This document shows positions 5,360 to 54,076 of a DNA stretch of 64,000 nt, in pieces. The DNA comes from Lachnospiraceae bacterium. Its GTDB lineage: Bacteria > Bacillota > Clostridia > Lachnospirales > Lachnospiraceae. Within the stretch, counting starts at the first letter, position 1. The number at the start of each line of letters is the position of its first letter. The DNA is taken from the NCBI GenBank assembly GCA_028696165.1, contig JAQVHQ010000005.1:62001-126000 (forward strand), written 5' to 3'. Made by a program: the position numbers and the translations under genes. Below the pieces are notes generated by a model that saw nothing but the letters and a program-made list of their open reading frames with translations, was not told the DNA's origin and ran no database searches.

Positions 5360-6394
5360 ATGGCATTTGAATTCATAACCAAGCTGCCAATCCCAGAACA
5401 AATTCGAAACGAATACCCAGTTCCAGAAGCGGTAGCAGCCAATAAAGCAAAACGAGACGAGATGATTCGCAAAGTATTCACCGGAGAATCTGACAAATTT
5501 CTAGTAATCGTAGGTCCATGTTCCGCCGACAACGAAGACGCTGTCTGCGACTACGTAAACCGTCTGGCACGTATTCAGGAAAAAGTATCCGATCGTCTGA
5601 TACTAATCCCGCGTGTCTACACCAACAAACCAAGAACTACTGGTGAAGGCTACAAAGGAATCGTCCATCAGCCAGACCCTGAGAAGAAACCAGACCTCCT
5701 TGCCGGATTAGTAGCTATGAGAAAAATGCATATCCGCGTTATGGAAGAGACCGGTCTTACCGCTGCAGACGAAATGCTGTATCCGGAAAACTGGCAGTAT
5801 TTAAAAGACATTCTCTCCTACGTAGCAGTAGGTGCACGCTCCGTAGAAAATCAGCAGCATCGATTGGTAGTAAGCGGCATTGACATTCCAGCCGGAATGA
5901 AAAATCCAACCAGCGGCGACTTAGAAGTTATGTTAAACTCCGTAGTTGCAGCCCAGGGAAAACACATGTTTATCTATCGTAACTGGGAAGTAAAAACTGA
6001 TGGCAACCCATTATCCCACACTATATTACGTGGTGCAGTAAACAAACATGGCAATGCAATTCCAAACTACCACTATGAGGATTTACAGTTATTGCTGGAG
6101 AAATACAACGAACGCGACCTGGCAAATCAGGCAGCAATCATTGACACCAATCATTCAAACTCCAACAAGCAGTATGACCAGCAGATTCGTATTGCAAAAG
6201 AAGTCCTTCACAGCCGCAAAGTCTCTCCAGATATTGCTCAGCTGGTAAAAGGTCTTATGATTGAAAGTTACATAGAACCTGGCTGTCAGAAGATTGGAAC
6301 CGGAAACCATGTATATGGCAAATCCATCACCGATCCATGTTTGGGCTGGTCCGAAACAGAACAGTTAATTTACACAATTGCTGAAACCTGCTAA
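5360..6394 (+). CDS. aroF: 3-deoxy-7-phosphoheptulonate (DAHP) synthase, class I
   Basis: 344 residues. Condenses phosphoenolpyruvate with erythrose 4-phosphate, the first step of the shikimate pathway. Class I AroF/G/H signatures are clear: VIVGPCSADN near 50-60, IPRVYTNKPRTTGEGYKG near 92-110, GARSVENQQHR, and the DTNHSNS metal/substrate motif near 260. The ATG at 5360 follows AAGAGGA at proper distance; the ATG at 5336 precedes that site and is rejected. Single gene between a promoter and a bidirectional terminator. Other pathway genes are distant at 47.6-50.3 kb. Confidence 0.95.
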   Translation: MAFEFITKLPIPEQIRNEYPVPEAVAANKAKRDEMIRKVFTGESDKFLVIVGPCSADNEDAVCDYVNRLARIQEKVSDRLILIPRVYTNKPRTTGEGYKGIVHQPDPEKKPDLLAGLVAMRKMHIRVMEETGLTAADEMLYPENWQYLKDILSYVAVGARSVENQQHRLVVSGIDIPAGMKNPTSGDLEVMLNSVVAAQGKHMFIYRNWEVKTDGNPLSHTILRGAVNKHGNAIPNYHYEDLQLLLEKYNERDLANQAAIIDTNHSNSNKQYDQQIRIAKEVLHSRKVSPDIAQLVKGLMIESYIEPGCQKIGTGNHVYGKSITDPCLGWSETEQLIYTIAETC

Positions 6395-6460
6395 ATATTC
6401 AAGTACGCCTTGCATACTTGAAATTCTGCATAATCGTATGTTTTAACCAATCTAATGTAT

Positions 6461-6502
6461 ATAAAAAGGCACATCCTATCTTCTAGGATGTGCCTTTTTA
6501 TA
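6461..6502. terminator. bidirectional terminator between aroF and xerD
   Basis: Stem of about 19 bp around TCTT, arms ending in A5 and T5 runs, so it can serve both converging genes. It overlaps the last codons of xerD. Confidence 0.85.
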
Positions 6503-7360
6503 TACGTCTCTCATTTTCTGACCATTTAAATTAAGATAAATCTGAGTAGTTGCAATATCCGAGTGTCCAAGCATCTCCTGAACACTTTTAATATCAGCCC
6601 CATTTTCTATCATATGTGCTGCAAACGAATGGCGCAACGTATGTGGTGTAATATCCTGCTCAATACCAGCCATAGCTGTATAGCTCTTTAATACCTTCCA
6701 GAATCCCTGTCGGCTCATTGGTTTTCCTGAACAGTTTGTAAATAATATTCCAGAATCCTCACCCTTAATAAATGTATCCCGGGCTCTGCCCATATACAGC
6801 TGCAGTGCATTCTTTGCCACACTGCCAAAAGGTATCAGACGCTCTTTACCTTCATCAATGCAGTTGATGTACTCATACTTCATATTCAAATCCTGAATAC
6901 GCAGATGTATCAGCTCGCTCACTCGTATTCCAGTAGCATACAGCAGTTCTAACATTGCTTTATCCCGAATACCCTTAGAAGTTTTCTCTGACGGCTGCTT
7001 CAGTAACAAGTCCACTTCTTCCACAGACATAATCTCTGGCGCCTTGCGATGTATCTTCGGTGGTTTTAACTGACTGGCCGGATTCTCTTCTAAAGTTTTA
7101 TTGTCCTTCAAATAACTAAAAAAAGCACGCATCGATGCTACGCTTCTTGACATCGAAGATGCTGCGAAAGATTCTTTCTCCATATACAGCATGTATGAAT
7201 TTAAGGTTGTAGAGGTAACCACTCCCCAGCTGGTAATCCCCTGAGTCTGCAAATAGTGCATTAACTTTTTTAAATCCCTCATATATGATACTTCTGTGTT
7301 GGAGGAGGAATGCTTTGTTCGATGTATATAATCTATAAATTCCTGAATTATGTCTTCCAT
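6476..7360 (-). CDS. xerD: site-specific tyrosine recombinase XerD
   Basis: 294 residues: N-terminal SAM-like core-binding domain (about 1-100) and C-terminal catalytic domain. The full active site is visible: Arg146 (TGIRVSEL), Lys172, His240 and Arg243 (HTLRHSFAAH), His266 (LGHSD) and Tyr275. Length and sequence fit XerD, which resolves chromosome dimers at dif with XerC, rather than an integrase of a mobile element. It has its own promoter at 7428-7456. The stop codon lies inside the terminator hairpin. Confidence 0.88.
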   Translation of the reverse strand: MEDIIQEFIDYIHRTKHSSSNTEVSYMRDLKKLMHYLQTQGITSWGVVTSTTLNSYMLYMEKESFAASSMSRSVASMRAFFSYLKDNKTLEENPASQLKPPKIHRKAPEIMSVEEVDLLLKQPSEKTSKGIRDKAMLELLYATGIRVSELIHLRIQDLNMKYEYINCIDEGKERLIPFGSVAKNALQLYMGRARDTFIKGEDSGILFTNCSGKPMSRQGFWKVLKSYTAMAGIEQDITPHTLRHSFAAHMIENGADIKSVQEMLGHSDIATTQIYLNLNGQKMRDVYKKAHPRR

Positions 7361-50426: not shown

Positions 50427-51416
50427 CTAATCAATCAGGTCATTTTGGAACCTGGACAAATGTTCATAAGGTAAGATGGATCTTCCTCGAAACAGCCCAC
50501 AGCCATCATTTATAAGGCTGTTGTTCACAGCGGCAAACATATTCACATCAAGGTCAGCAAGTTCTAATTGCTGAAGCAGCATAACCCTCTCATATGCTTC
50601 ATCAAAATAGATACATTCTCCCACAGGAATTGCATCTCTTCTTGCCCGTTCATTCTCCTGTCTTTTTTCATATCCCAGATGATTAGCAGGACCAATTTCC
50701 GCATAATCATCCATACCCTTCGTGCGCAGCTGAACTTCCACATAGCAGCGGGCACTGTTATCATAAAAGGTTATATGAAGTGAGCGATAACCATATTCAT
50801 TCCCATTAGAAATATAGTCTCTATAATAAGGTGCAACAGTCTCATTTAACAATGGTGAAGTTGTATTACCGGCAAGTCCTGCAACCTCTGCGCTAAACCC
50901 TCTTTCTTCAAGGAATTCCGGAAGATGATTTGCTATCTCATATAAATATTTGATTTCTTCTGTCTCTCTGTCCTCGCCTCTTTTCACATGACACTTCGGC
51001 AGCGAAATTACAATTCGGTAAGCAATTAAATCTCTAAAACATGTGAGCTTATTCTTCAATTCCGGAATGGAGGGATATGTTCCATGTTCAATATAATAAT
51101 CATATATATATTCTACAACATATCCGTTAAACTTTTCCTCAGCTCTGATTAGCGATTTAATTCTTCCCTTAAACGTGAATGCAAGATATGGATATTCGCT
51201 TGCCATATACTTGTAAAATTCTCTGATACGCTGAGACTGGGAGGTCAAAAAGTCATTATGCTCAAGAAGGTCTGTTATCTGAATAAGGAAGTTGCAATGT
51301 ACCAGATCAATTTGATTATGTGTCTGTTTTGCGGATTTTCTTAAGTCTTCTATATATTTGTACAGTATTTTAATCACTGTGTCTCCGGAGTATAGATAGT
51401 CGTTTAATTTTATCAT
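50427..51416 (-). CDS. RelA/SpoT-domain (p)ppGpp synthetase-like protein
   Basis: 329 residues. Synthetase motifs: FKGRIKSLIRAEEK (about 83-96), DLIAYRIV (about 129-136), YGYRSLHITFYD (G-loop, about 209-220) and VEVQLRTKGMDDYAEIGPANHLGYEK (about 227-252). No HD hydrolase, TGS or ACT domain, so a small alarmone synthetase-like enzyme, though longer at both ends than RelQ/RelP. Synthesises (p)ppGpp from ATP and GTP/GDP if active. Located beside a kinase-B12 sensor pair but apparently separately transcribed. Confidence 0.85.
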   Translation of the reverse strand: MIKLNDYLYSGDTVIKILYKYIEDLRKSAKQTHNQIDLVHCNFLIQITDLLEHNDFLTSQSQRIREFYKYMASEYPYLAFTFKGRIKSLIRAEEKFNGYVVEYIYDYYIEHGTYPSIPELKNKLTCFRDLIAYRIVISLPKCHVKRGEDRETEEIKYLYEIANHLPEFLEERGFSAEVAGLAGNTTSPLLNETVAPYYRDYISNGNEYGYRSLHITFYDNSARCYVEVQLRTKGMDDYAEIGPANHLGYEKRQENERARRDAIPVGECIYFDEAYERVMLLQQLELADLDVNMFAAVNNSLINDGCGLFRGRSILPYEHLSRFQNDLID

Positions 51417-51495: not shown

Positions 51496-52854
51496 CTACG
51501 TGCATTGGAGTACTTTGCTCAATGTTTTATACAAAACAACTGCATCCACCGGTTTTGCCAGATGCTCATTCATTCCTGCCTTTAAGCTTTTCTGTATATC
51601 TTCCGGATATGCATTGGCAGACATAGCGATAATAGGAATATTCTCAGCATCCTTTCTCTCAAGAGCTCGAATTTTCTTTGCTGCCTCTATCCCCGACATT
51701 TCCGGCATGCGGATATCCATAAGTACAACATCAAAGCTTCCCTCTGGCGATGCCCGGAATAAATCGACTCCTATTTTTCCATTTTCTGCATGTATCACAT
51801 GCATATTCTGTTTCTCCAACAATCTTTCAGCAATTCTGGTATTTAAAGGGTGATCTTCCACCAGTAAGACATTTTTTCCATGAAGGATATCAAATGACTC
51901 TTTTTTTTCATGCACTTCTCCCTTCGCCAACTCAAAAGTCAGCTTCACACTAATTGTTGTTCCTTTTCCCTTTTGACTTTTCACCTGAATAGTTCCGCCC
52001 ATCTGCTCAACCAGGCGCTTGGTTATACTTAATCCCAGACCACTCCCTTTTAATTCTGGACTTACGGAATTATCTTCCTGGGAAAAGGGTTCAAAAAGAT
52101 GTTTTTGAAATTCTTCTGACATACCGATTCCATTATCTGTAACCCGATATTCTACAGATATTTTATTTTCGGCCTCATTTACACTCACCTGATATGCGCC
52201 TACTTCAATACGACCTCCCGGCGGTGTGTATTTAACAGCATTGGAAATAATATTAAAAAATATCTGCTTTATGCGAATCTTGTCTGTCATAACAGTTGGA
52301 TTGGAAGCGGCTTCTTTTGTATACAAAGTAATGTGTTTAGCATCGCACTGTGTCGAAAACATAGTTTTCATCTCTAATGCAAATTCCTGATAACTATATG
52401 GTTTCTGATTTAATACCACCGTTCCTTTTTCTATTTTAGACATATCCAGTATATCATTAACGAGCCCCAGCATAAAATCGCTGGCATCACGAATATTGGT
52501 CATATTTTCCCGTACAGCAGCCGGATTATCAGCTTCATCTATGGTTGCTGACGCTAATCCCATGATAACATTCATTGGAGTACGCATATCATGACTCATG
52601 CGGGACATGAACTCCATCTTTTCCTTGGCTGCTTTTTCAGATGCTTCTAAAGCGATTTTAAATTGTTCGTTTCTCTTTAGTTCTTCCTGCATTCTTCTGG
52701 ATTCCATGAGTGCACGGTTTAGTTCTCTCTGCATGTCAATCATCAGATTATTCATCTTCTGCATCTCTTCCAGGTAAAACTGTACATCTTCGTCCTTAGG
52801 TGTCATCATTTCTTCCACAATATCTGTATTTATCGGATACTCGTTTTTGTCCAT
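51496..52854 (-). CDS. cytoplasmic hybrid histidine kinase (HisKA-HATPase-REC)
   Basis: 452 residues: N-terminal coiled coil (about 22-80) and no transmembrane or PAS segment; HisKA with His88 in SHDMRTPMN; HATPase with DNGIGMS and GSGLGLSITKRLVEQMGG; C-terminal receiver with Asp in DVVLMDIRMPEMSG (about 378). With no sensor of its own it must take input from a partner. Its start overlaps the end of the B12-binding gene by 25 bp, making that protein the obvious candidate. No output regulator is adjacent. Confidence 0.9.
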   Translation of the reverse strand: MDKNEYPINTDIVEEMMTPKDEDVQFYLEEMQKMNNLMIDMQRELNRALMESRRMQEELKRNEQFKIALEASEKAAKEKMEFMSRMSHDMRTPMNVIMGLASATIDEADNPAAVRENMTNIRDASDFMLGLVNDILDMSKIEKGTVVLNQKPYSYQEFALEMKTMFSTQCDAKHITLYTKEAASNPTVMTDKIRIKQIFFNIISNAVKYTPPGGRIEVGAYQVSVNEAENKISVEYRVTDNGIGMSEEFQKHLFEPFSQEDNSVSPELKGSGLGLSITKRLVEQMGGTIQVKSQKGKGTTISVKLTFELAKGEVHEKKESFDILHGKNVLLVEDHPLNTRIAERLLEKQNMHVIHAENGKIGVDLFRASPEGSFDVVLMDIRMPEMSGIEAAKKIRALERKDAENIPIIAMSANAYPEDIQKSLKAGMNEHLAKPVDAVVLYKTLSKVLQCT

Positions 52855-53909
52855 TGAATCAATCCTCTCGCATCTGTCGTATAGACATCTGCTTTCCAGT
52901 TCTTCCAGGCATTTGGAATATCTGTAAATGCCCTTCCACCTATTGCAATTTTAATATCCGGATTTTTACTGCGAAGCTTTTGTACCATATCTTTGCAGAG
53001 CATCAGGTGTTGCGGCATAGTTACAGACAAGGCAACCAAATCTGGTTTTTCATCCTCTACTGCTGCCAAAACTGCCTCTTCAGGTACACCAGCACCCAAA
53101 AAGATACTATTCCATCCTTCATAAGTAAATAAATCAGTGATCATTCGCATTCCCATTTCATGAAGCTCGCCTCCTATACAGCATCCAATCATGGTATGTC
53201 CATTAGACGGGGTAGAAAAAATAGCTGAATATAACTGAGAAAGAGCCGTTTGTGTCAAAGCGGTACAATAATGTTCCTGCGCTACACTGATTTTATTTTC
53301 AAACCACAGTTCACCTATTTTGCGCATAATCTTCTGGACTAGTTCCAGATATATTTCATCAATTCTCATTCCTTTTTGATACAGATTCAAAAAATACTGC
53401 ATTGCAGTTTTCGAATCTTTCCTTAAAATAGTTGAAATATAATCTGCTATTATCTGTTCATACACTGCTGATTTTTCGTTCCTATTTTCCAGTTCTCTCG
53501 CAACCTGAACTTCCTTTTTTGAAATTTTATCAATAGTTTCCATACCCTTTTGTATATAGTCAGAAGCCAGACTGTACTTTTCCTGTGGCAGTTCCGTTTT
53601 CAGACACTCTCTCATAGCTGCATAAAAATCTTTGCACTGTGCTGTCATCTTGTCCTTAGTCACATAGGTCATTAGATAACTTAAGTACTGATATGTCCAT
53701 TCTACGTAAGATATAAAAACCCTTTCTTCCTTTAAATCCATTGCAGACTTCAAGTATGAAATTCCATAGTAAAAATCACGCTTCATAAACTTTCTTGCCC
53801 GCTCTGGAAGTTCATCATATAATCCCGGTGACTGTTCATACTGTCTTTTGGACATACGCTGCACTAATTCATTTAATTCATCCGCCTCATCGATATAAAA
53901 CAAACTCAT
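52830..53909 (-). CDS. B12-binding sensor protein with CarH-type W-x9-EH motif
   Basis: 359 residues: N-terminal helical region of unknown fold (about 1-135), four-helix B12 cap domain (about 145-230) and Rossmann cobalamin-binding domain (about 235-359). The cap holds Trp202, nine residues, then Glu212-His213, the W-x9-EH signature of CarH/AerR-type light-sensing adenosylcobalamin proteins. The base-off His250 lies in GELHEMG (E-x-H-x-x-G), followed by FLGAGVP and ALSVTMPQH. No DNA-binding HTH. Overlap with the downstream histidine kinase gene indicates a B12-dependent signalling module; a corrinoid methyl-carrier role is less likely without a methyltransferase alongside. Confidence 0.8.
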   Translation of the reverse strand: MSLFYIDEADELNELVQRMSKRQYEQSPGLYDELPERARKFMKRDFYYGISYLKSAMDLKEERVFISYVEWTYQYLSYLMTYVTKDKMTAQCKDFYAAMRECLKTELPQEKYSLASDYIQKGMETIDKISKKEVQVARELENRNEKSAVYEQIIADYISTILRKDSKTAMQYFLNLYQKGMRIDEIYLELVQKIMRKIGELWFENKISVAQEHYCTALTQTALSQLYSAIFSTPSNGHTMIGCCIGGELHEMGMRMITDLFTYEGWNSIFLGAGVPEEAVLAAVEDEKPDLVALSVTMPQHLMLCKDMVQKLRSKNPDIKIAIGGRAFTDIPNAWKNWKADVYTTDARGLIQWTKTSIR

Positions 53910-53970
53910 AATCCTATCCCCCGATTCTTATCCTTGTATTGTTCTCCTGACTGACGCGATACACTTAAAA

Positions 53971-54076
53971 TTGATCCACTAGATCAATTTACACATGCAC
54001 GGCAACTGAAAAATGGTCCACCGGATCAATTTACACATGCATGACAACTGAAAATGTAATGCCGAAAATCCGGCAT
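53971..54076. repeat. 42-bp tandem duplication with dyad between divergent operons
   Basis: Units 53975-54016 and 54017-54058 share ATCAATTTACACATGCA and CAACTGAAAA. The first carries the perfect dyad TTGATC-CACTA-GATCAA (53971-53987). A GC-rich hairpin ATGCCG/CGGCAT follows at 54059-54076. The gap 53910-54277 separates the B12-kinase operon (minus) from chrA (plus) and holds no gene. No cobalamin riboswitch pattern was seen. Confidence 0.75.

Follow-up and report, generated by a model that had tools for sequence, protein, structure and literature searches.

A stand-alone globin-B12 sensor most likely switches a separate kinase through a helix common to kinase and cyclic-di-GMP enzyme partners in three phyla

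To our knowledge, the B12 photoreceptors described so far either target DNA or form one chain with the enzyme that they control. Photoglobins, reportedly from Schneider et al. 2022, are already known, as are photocobilins and proteins in which CarH-type domains are joined to signalling domains. Light-responsive cobalamin domains carry a defined and experimentally tested signature of GxxW, EH, GxxH and GxxxP (Yu et al., PMC11796333). In the photocobilin SasPcob, Asp270 is the key biliverdin contact and Trp296 touches biliverdin ring D and the corrin (PMC10979010). The same study mentions photocobilin groups with either domain order, and reports that a separate diguanylate cyclase domain becomes more active in the presence of isolated photocobilin domains in their light state, one of these being the stand-alone SasPcob.

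We analysed a stretch of 64,000 nucleotides from a Lachnospiraceae genome, here called the window, in which a minus-strand gene (52830..53909, read 53909→52830) encodes a protein of 359 aa made up of a photoglobin, a cap and a cobalamin-binding domain. The open reading frame is real, though it lies on the minus strand; the plus strand across it is crowded with stops. The cap domain (PF02607, residues 157-226, 53232..53441, minus strand, Pfam E 2e-12) holds the motif W202-x9-E212-H213 (53271-53306), which is identical in 22/22 aligned relatives. The cobalamin-binding Rossmann domain (PF02310, residues 241-339, 52893..53189, minus strand, Pfam E 8e-20) holds E248-L-H250-E-M-G253, with H250 as the cobalt-ligand His, and G272xxxP276. 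Both matches, to B12-binding_2 and B12-binding, are over the Pfam cut-offs and far beyond chance. The original prediction had described a B12 protein with Trp202-x9-Glu212-His213 and Glu248-x-His250-x2-Gly253 and no DNA-binding domain; translation places both motifs at these positions, and Pfam found no HTH. The translation also contains the complete light-response signature (G199xxW202, E212H213, G247xxH250, G272xxxP276). Among the 22 aligned relatives G199, W202, E212, H213, E248, H250, G272 and P276 are invariant, and signature position 247 varies among G, S, N and D.

In NCBIfam the sensor shows a weak resemblance to MtgC (52.9 bits against a cut-off of 370) and to other corrinoid proteins, which would fit a corrinoid protein belonging to a methyltransferase system, with the kinase a chance neighbour. 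The original prediction had set this identity beforehand as a test of its own claim, and the evidence makes it very improbable: the NCBIfam scores fall far below the cut-off, no methyltransferase adjoins the sensor gene, and photocobilins are the best relatives of solved structure. The top sequence match among solved proteins is SasPcob (8j2w, E 4e-24, 28% identity), light-responsive CtMerR (8jbs) follows at E 2e-15, and methionine synthase and MtaC are lower, at about 1e-8. Photocobilin and CarH relatives thus outscore corrinoid ones, and the pairing with a kinase or cyclase described below is conserved across phyla. The methyltransferase-type corrinoid protein of this genome is a separate gene that lacks W-x9-EH and lies between methyltransferase-like neighbours, and the corrinoid identity was rejected.

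The N-terminal helical domain, originally called unfamiliar, proved to be recognizable both by fold (AlphaFold2, VIA-align) and by sequence profile. AlphaFold2 modelled the whole sensor with a mean pLDDT of 84.9, and residues 1-143 alone, together with 14 relatives, with a pLDDT of 82.3. Foldseek with this domain gave weak E-values (best 0.03), and its top matches were almost all bilin proteins, namely smURFP, allophycocyanins and the SasPcob biliverdin domain, with a few heme globins further down the list. VIA-align aligned the domain with smURFP at Z 14.9 (rmsd 2.0, 125 residues) and with the biliverdin domain of SasPcob (229-346) at Z 14.1. Because helical models can score Z about 13-14 from the arrangement of their helices alone, we also checked the domain by sequence. 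An HMM of the domain searched against all PDB sequences retrieved allophycocyanin beta (E 3e-5) and then photocobilins (E 0.016). Asp45 (53775..53777, minus strand) and Trp71 (53697..53699, minus strand) fall in an ungapped stretch of the profile alignment, opposite SasPcob Asp270 and Trp296; Asp45 also lines up with the Asp in the CxRD motif of phycobiliproteins. SasPcob chain residue 264 corresponds to Asp270 in the numbering of the paper, an offset of +6 fixed by Trp61 and Glu71-His72. Trp71 is kept in 21/22 relatives, and position 45 is Asp in 15, Asn in 5 and Gly in 2. The Cys that binds bilin covalently is generally missing from photocobilins, and likewise from the window sensor, which has Met42; the Azospirillum and Skermanella sensors have Cys-x-x-Asp. 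DUF3212 and other sub-threshold Pfam matches to the N-terminus were discarded after the globin fold emerged. On the strength of the model and the profile, the N-terminal domain (about residues 9-141, 53487..53885, minus strand) is a bilin-type globin, or photoglobin. Since a globin and a CarH-type cobalamin domain are thereby predicted in one chain, the architecture of the sensor is that of a stand-alone photocobilin whose globin comes at the N-terminus.

The sensor gene overlaps by 25 bp a gene for a hybrid histidine kinase of 452 aa (51496..52854, minus strand). Pfam recognized HisKA (79-144), HATPase_c (191-307) and a receiver (329-444) alone, in agreement with the original prediction of an overlapping hybrid kinase without a sensor of its own; ahead of HisKA there is a coiled N-terminus and nothing else. 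The phosphoacceptor His and Asp motifs are intact in the translation. No HPt partner for the receiver was found in the window operon, and the kinases of two relatives appear to have a C-terminal HPt (L069 by Pfam, L075 by inspection).

The window neighbours of the sensor gene are the kinase, a RelA/SpoT-domain protein and chromate-transporter-like genes. The RelA/SpoT-domain protein (329 aa, 50427-51416), downstream on the same strand, is not conserved beside the pair in relatives. After the pair, the two closest genomes of the same family each have a gene for a second hybrid kinase, of 724 aa, and one that is solute-binding-protein-like (L009 5505-7679 and 3649-5508; L010 5763-7937 and 3895-5766), an arrangement absent in the window. 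Upstream of the sensor gene, two tandem 42-bp repeats (53963-54046) each contain a palindrome, AAATTGATC-N5-GATCAATTT, with 0 and 2 mismatches (expected 0.09 in the window). We rejected these repeats as a conserved operator, as neither repeat nor palindrome was found upstream of orthologs.

The succession of sensor and overlapping hybrid kinase recurs in L009, L010 and L007 (71-76% identity) and in L008 (52-58%). The L008 sensor ortholog (6001-7074) is interrupted near codon 48 by an in-frame stop, which points to a sequencing error or to gene decay. More distant full-length relatives have a kinase partner (L031, L032, L035), a GGDEF partner (L015, L029, L030, L033) or a GGDEF-EAL partner (L011, L028). 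In every ortholog with intact downstream assembly the partner lies on the strand of the sensor, overlapping it or within about 40 bp. Several cyclase-type operons are extended by a similar membrane protein of ~175 aa (L067 2090-2599, L072 489-1013, L074 449-985, L014 2706-3236); the similarity was judged by eye, and the three tested (L067, L072, L014) had no Pfam match. Separately, a second partnership recurs in Clostridia (L012, L025, L037, L039, L041-L049), where a B12 protein precedes a permease of ~385 aa, which Pfam assigns to FtsX/MacB in L012 and L025. These B12 proteins are mostly short (~220 aa), one has an HTH (L025), and they have neither a globin nor a helix partner.

Comparison of partner N-termini showed that the partners of globin-B12 sensors share one ~35-residue helix, with the pattern NNELxNxQRELxKKNxxL, directly ahead of the catalytic domain. 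In the window kinase this proposed docking or transmission helix spans residues 24-61 (52672..52785, minus strand; VQFYLEEMQKMNNLMIDMQRELNRALMESRRMQEELKR). The aligned segments are FYLEEMQKMNNLMIDMQRELNRAL in the window kinase, FYMDKMSALNNQLINAQRELYKKN in the L031 kinase, RLDEISKLNNELVNSRRELSKKN in the L015 cyclase and YYEIQKVNNQLINYQRALTKAN in the L028 phosphodiesterase, and the alignment was extended to all 25 partners. Conserved pairing, with a dedicated helix that marks the partners, supports the original proposal that a B12 sensor of CarH type is coupled to a two-component kinase without a sensor of its own, and does so beyond what was originally claimed.

We surveyed genomes for this helix at three taxonomic levels. 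Among 299 genomes of the family it was present in 4 (E<=0.001), exactly those with a globin-B12 protein, and among 391 genomes of the class in 9 (E<1e-5), exactly those in which the B12 protein has a globin domain. The positives at these two levels include rows used to train the profile, and the negatives are the independent part of the result. Genomes with solely HTH-type or short (~220 aa) B12 proteins had no helix. The two weakest extra matches are spurious, one lying in UvrB (G999) and the other in a P-type ATPase (G918); genuine matches in the family and class surveys are confined to sensor-bearing genomes. The helix was found in 14/15 sensor genomes, one per genome except for one sub-threshold match. 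The sensor genome lacking it (G335) has its loci at contig edges, and in G697 the sensor and the helix gene lie at two contig ends. In the phylum survey, 9 new genomes that had contributed nothing to training carried the helix, and in 9/9 a globin-family B12 gene lay directly upstream; at two of these loci (L068, L071) there were disrupted genes or no N-terminus could be located. G406 is likewise outside the training rows.

Searching plasmids with a Bacillota sensor, we recovered homologs of full length from Azospirillum and Skermanella, and a partial one from Ilyobacter. The GGDEF protein beside the Ilyobacter (Fusobacteriota) sensor carries the helix (E 2e-15), as do the kinases that come after the sensor in A. 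thermophilum and in two strains of A. brasilense (E 2e-10 to 6e-12). The Skermanella sensor has no adjacent helix partner. A tblastn search of plasmids with the helix consensus gave no match, the 32-residue query being too weak.

Coiled-coil linkers ahead of HisKA and GGDEF are common, and the helix could be a generic signalling coiled coil that has no docking role and travels through inheritance of the operon as a unit. We consider this unlikely. Other kinases in the same loci did not match the helix profile, the window genome held no other match at E<=0.01, and a search of solved structures gave nothing significant, with no Pfam family or PDB chain covering the helix. A generic kinase linker was rejected on the specificity seen in profile searches and non-partner kinases. 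In a tree of 22 sensors the output class (kinase, cyclase, phosphodiesterase) needs about 5 changes, and the well-supported branches alone require at least 3 changes for the kinase label. That the helix is kept while the enzyme class changes runs contrary to simple co-inheritance of a whole operon, and suggests an element of docking and transmission between sensor and partner.

We infer from sequence that the sensor binds AdoCbl and that light is its stimulus. AdoCbl would be held base-off via His250, with the adenosyl group enclosed by Trp202 and by Glu212-His213 reaching across a head-to-tail dimer. Light, green above all, would break the Co-C bond so that the adenosyl group leaves, and this loss would alter the sensor dimer and the arrangement of globin and cap. 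The change would act in trans on the hybrid kinase through the conserved ~35-residue helix directly ahead of HisKA, altering autophosphorylation and flow through the receiver, with a sign of output that is likewise conjectural. In relatives the same sensor and helix would control diguanylate cyclases or GGDEF-EAL proteins. The behaviour of CarH and photocobilins leads us to expect the same of the window sensor, with the helix as receiver and a phosphorelay as output. Taken as a whole, this proposal of a stand-alone photocobilin, an AdoCbl light switch and in-trans control of the kinase via the helix seems to us reasonably probable.

The same architecture could instead report AdoCbl supply or oxygen and redox state, the CarH-like pocket serving as a cofactor gauge and the apo and AdoCbl-bound sensor setting the kinase differently. 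There is precedent in AbDPcob, whose apo and AdoCbl-bound forms differ in cyclase activity (PMC10979010). Most hosts belong to the Clostridia, among which anaerobes are numerous, and this counts against light and in favour of this reading. The cobalamin adenosyltransferase in the window genome (E 5e-48) fits this reading and the light reading alike. Heme oxygenase (PF01126) was not found in the window genome (97% complete) or in five other sensor genomes, and controls elsewhere were positive; this too is consistent with a signal other than light. However, the light signature is complete, its Trp and Glu-His around the adenosyl group are invariant, and such a signature has no obvious use in cofactor gauging. 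A CarH-like relative in the class, L036, also lies directly before a UV-endonuclease gene, a point for light. Finally, the nearest named relative (INTA.CYC.029, 76% identity) belongs by its name to a MAG series recovered from a dairy-wastewater pond of facultative type, in which photosynthetic Chromatiales also occurred. This left the "gut-type anaerobe" of the original prediction unsupported. We judge the cofactor or oxygen reading, the leading alternative, to be somewhat unlikely, and favour light.

At the L036 locus (G980 C156) the CarH-like protein has an XRE-type HTH replacing MerR and is encoded directly before a gene for UvdE UV-damage endonuclease plus DUF1722, which suggests light-controlled DNA repair in a Clostridial genome.

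Bilin use by the window sensor is uncertain, as six sensor genomes have no recognizable heme oxygenase. Together with the replacement of Asp45 by Asn or Gly in 7/22 relatives, this means that the second chromophore may be absent: in such hosts the globin may be bilin-free or may take bilin from outside. AbDPcob binds biliverdin weakly.

In the literature searched, from which the main photoglobin paper was missing, we found no report of a constant pairing with a separate kinase, cyclase or phosphodiesterase, or of a shared helix. Here the predicted B12 photosensor is a separate protein, and partners of three enzyme classes bear one recognizable helix, so that signalling from B12 photosensor to enzyme becomes directly testable with a short sequence. 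This suggests a portable input by which green light, perhaps also red light, could control kinases and c-di-GMP enzymes. It would place B12 photoreception in Clostridia, where light sensing has been little studied, and it predicts the same system in the genetically tractable Azospirillum brasilense. In its widest form, the ~35-residue helix would be a universal plug for globin-B12 photosensors onto a kinase, cyclase or phosphodiesterase in at least three phyla, used in anaerobes that lack heme oxygenase by a globin with no bilin or with scavenged bilin; we put this forward tentatively, at a little under an even chance.

With CarH/LitR proteins (TtCarH, CtMerR) the window sensor shares the cap and cobalamin domains, the adenosyl-pocket Trp and Glu-His, the His cobalt ligand and the full light signature. 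It has a globin in place of their DNA-binding domain, and its predicted output is a partner enzyme and not operator DNA. The NCBIfam CarH model gave 47.4 bits against a cut-off of 400, and the N-terminal MerR-type domain is absent. The AerR/PpaA antirepressors are likewise cobalamin proteins that lack a DNA-binding domain and act on a partner protein, but they are more distant in sequence (7te2, E 3e-4), and AerR acts on CrtJ whereas the neighbour of the window sensor and of its relatives is a kinase or c-di-GMP enzyme. The closest likeness is to the photocobilins SasPcob and AbDPcob (Zhang et al. 2024, PMC10979010; 8J2W/8J2X/8J2Y), which share the CarH-type cobalamin domain, the five-helix bilin-type globin, the W-EH and E-x-H motifs, the equivalents of the biliverdin contacts Asp270/Trp296 and, in SasPcob, a precedent for a stand-alone form acting on a separate enzyme. 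The window sensor differs from them in its N-terminal globin, in hosts with no recognizable heme oxygenase, and in a permanent operon partner, here a hybrid kinase, with a dedicated helix.
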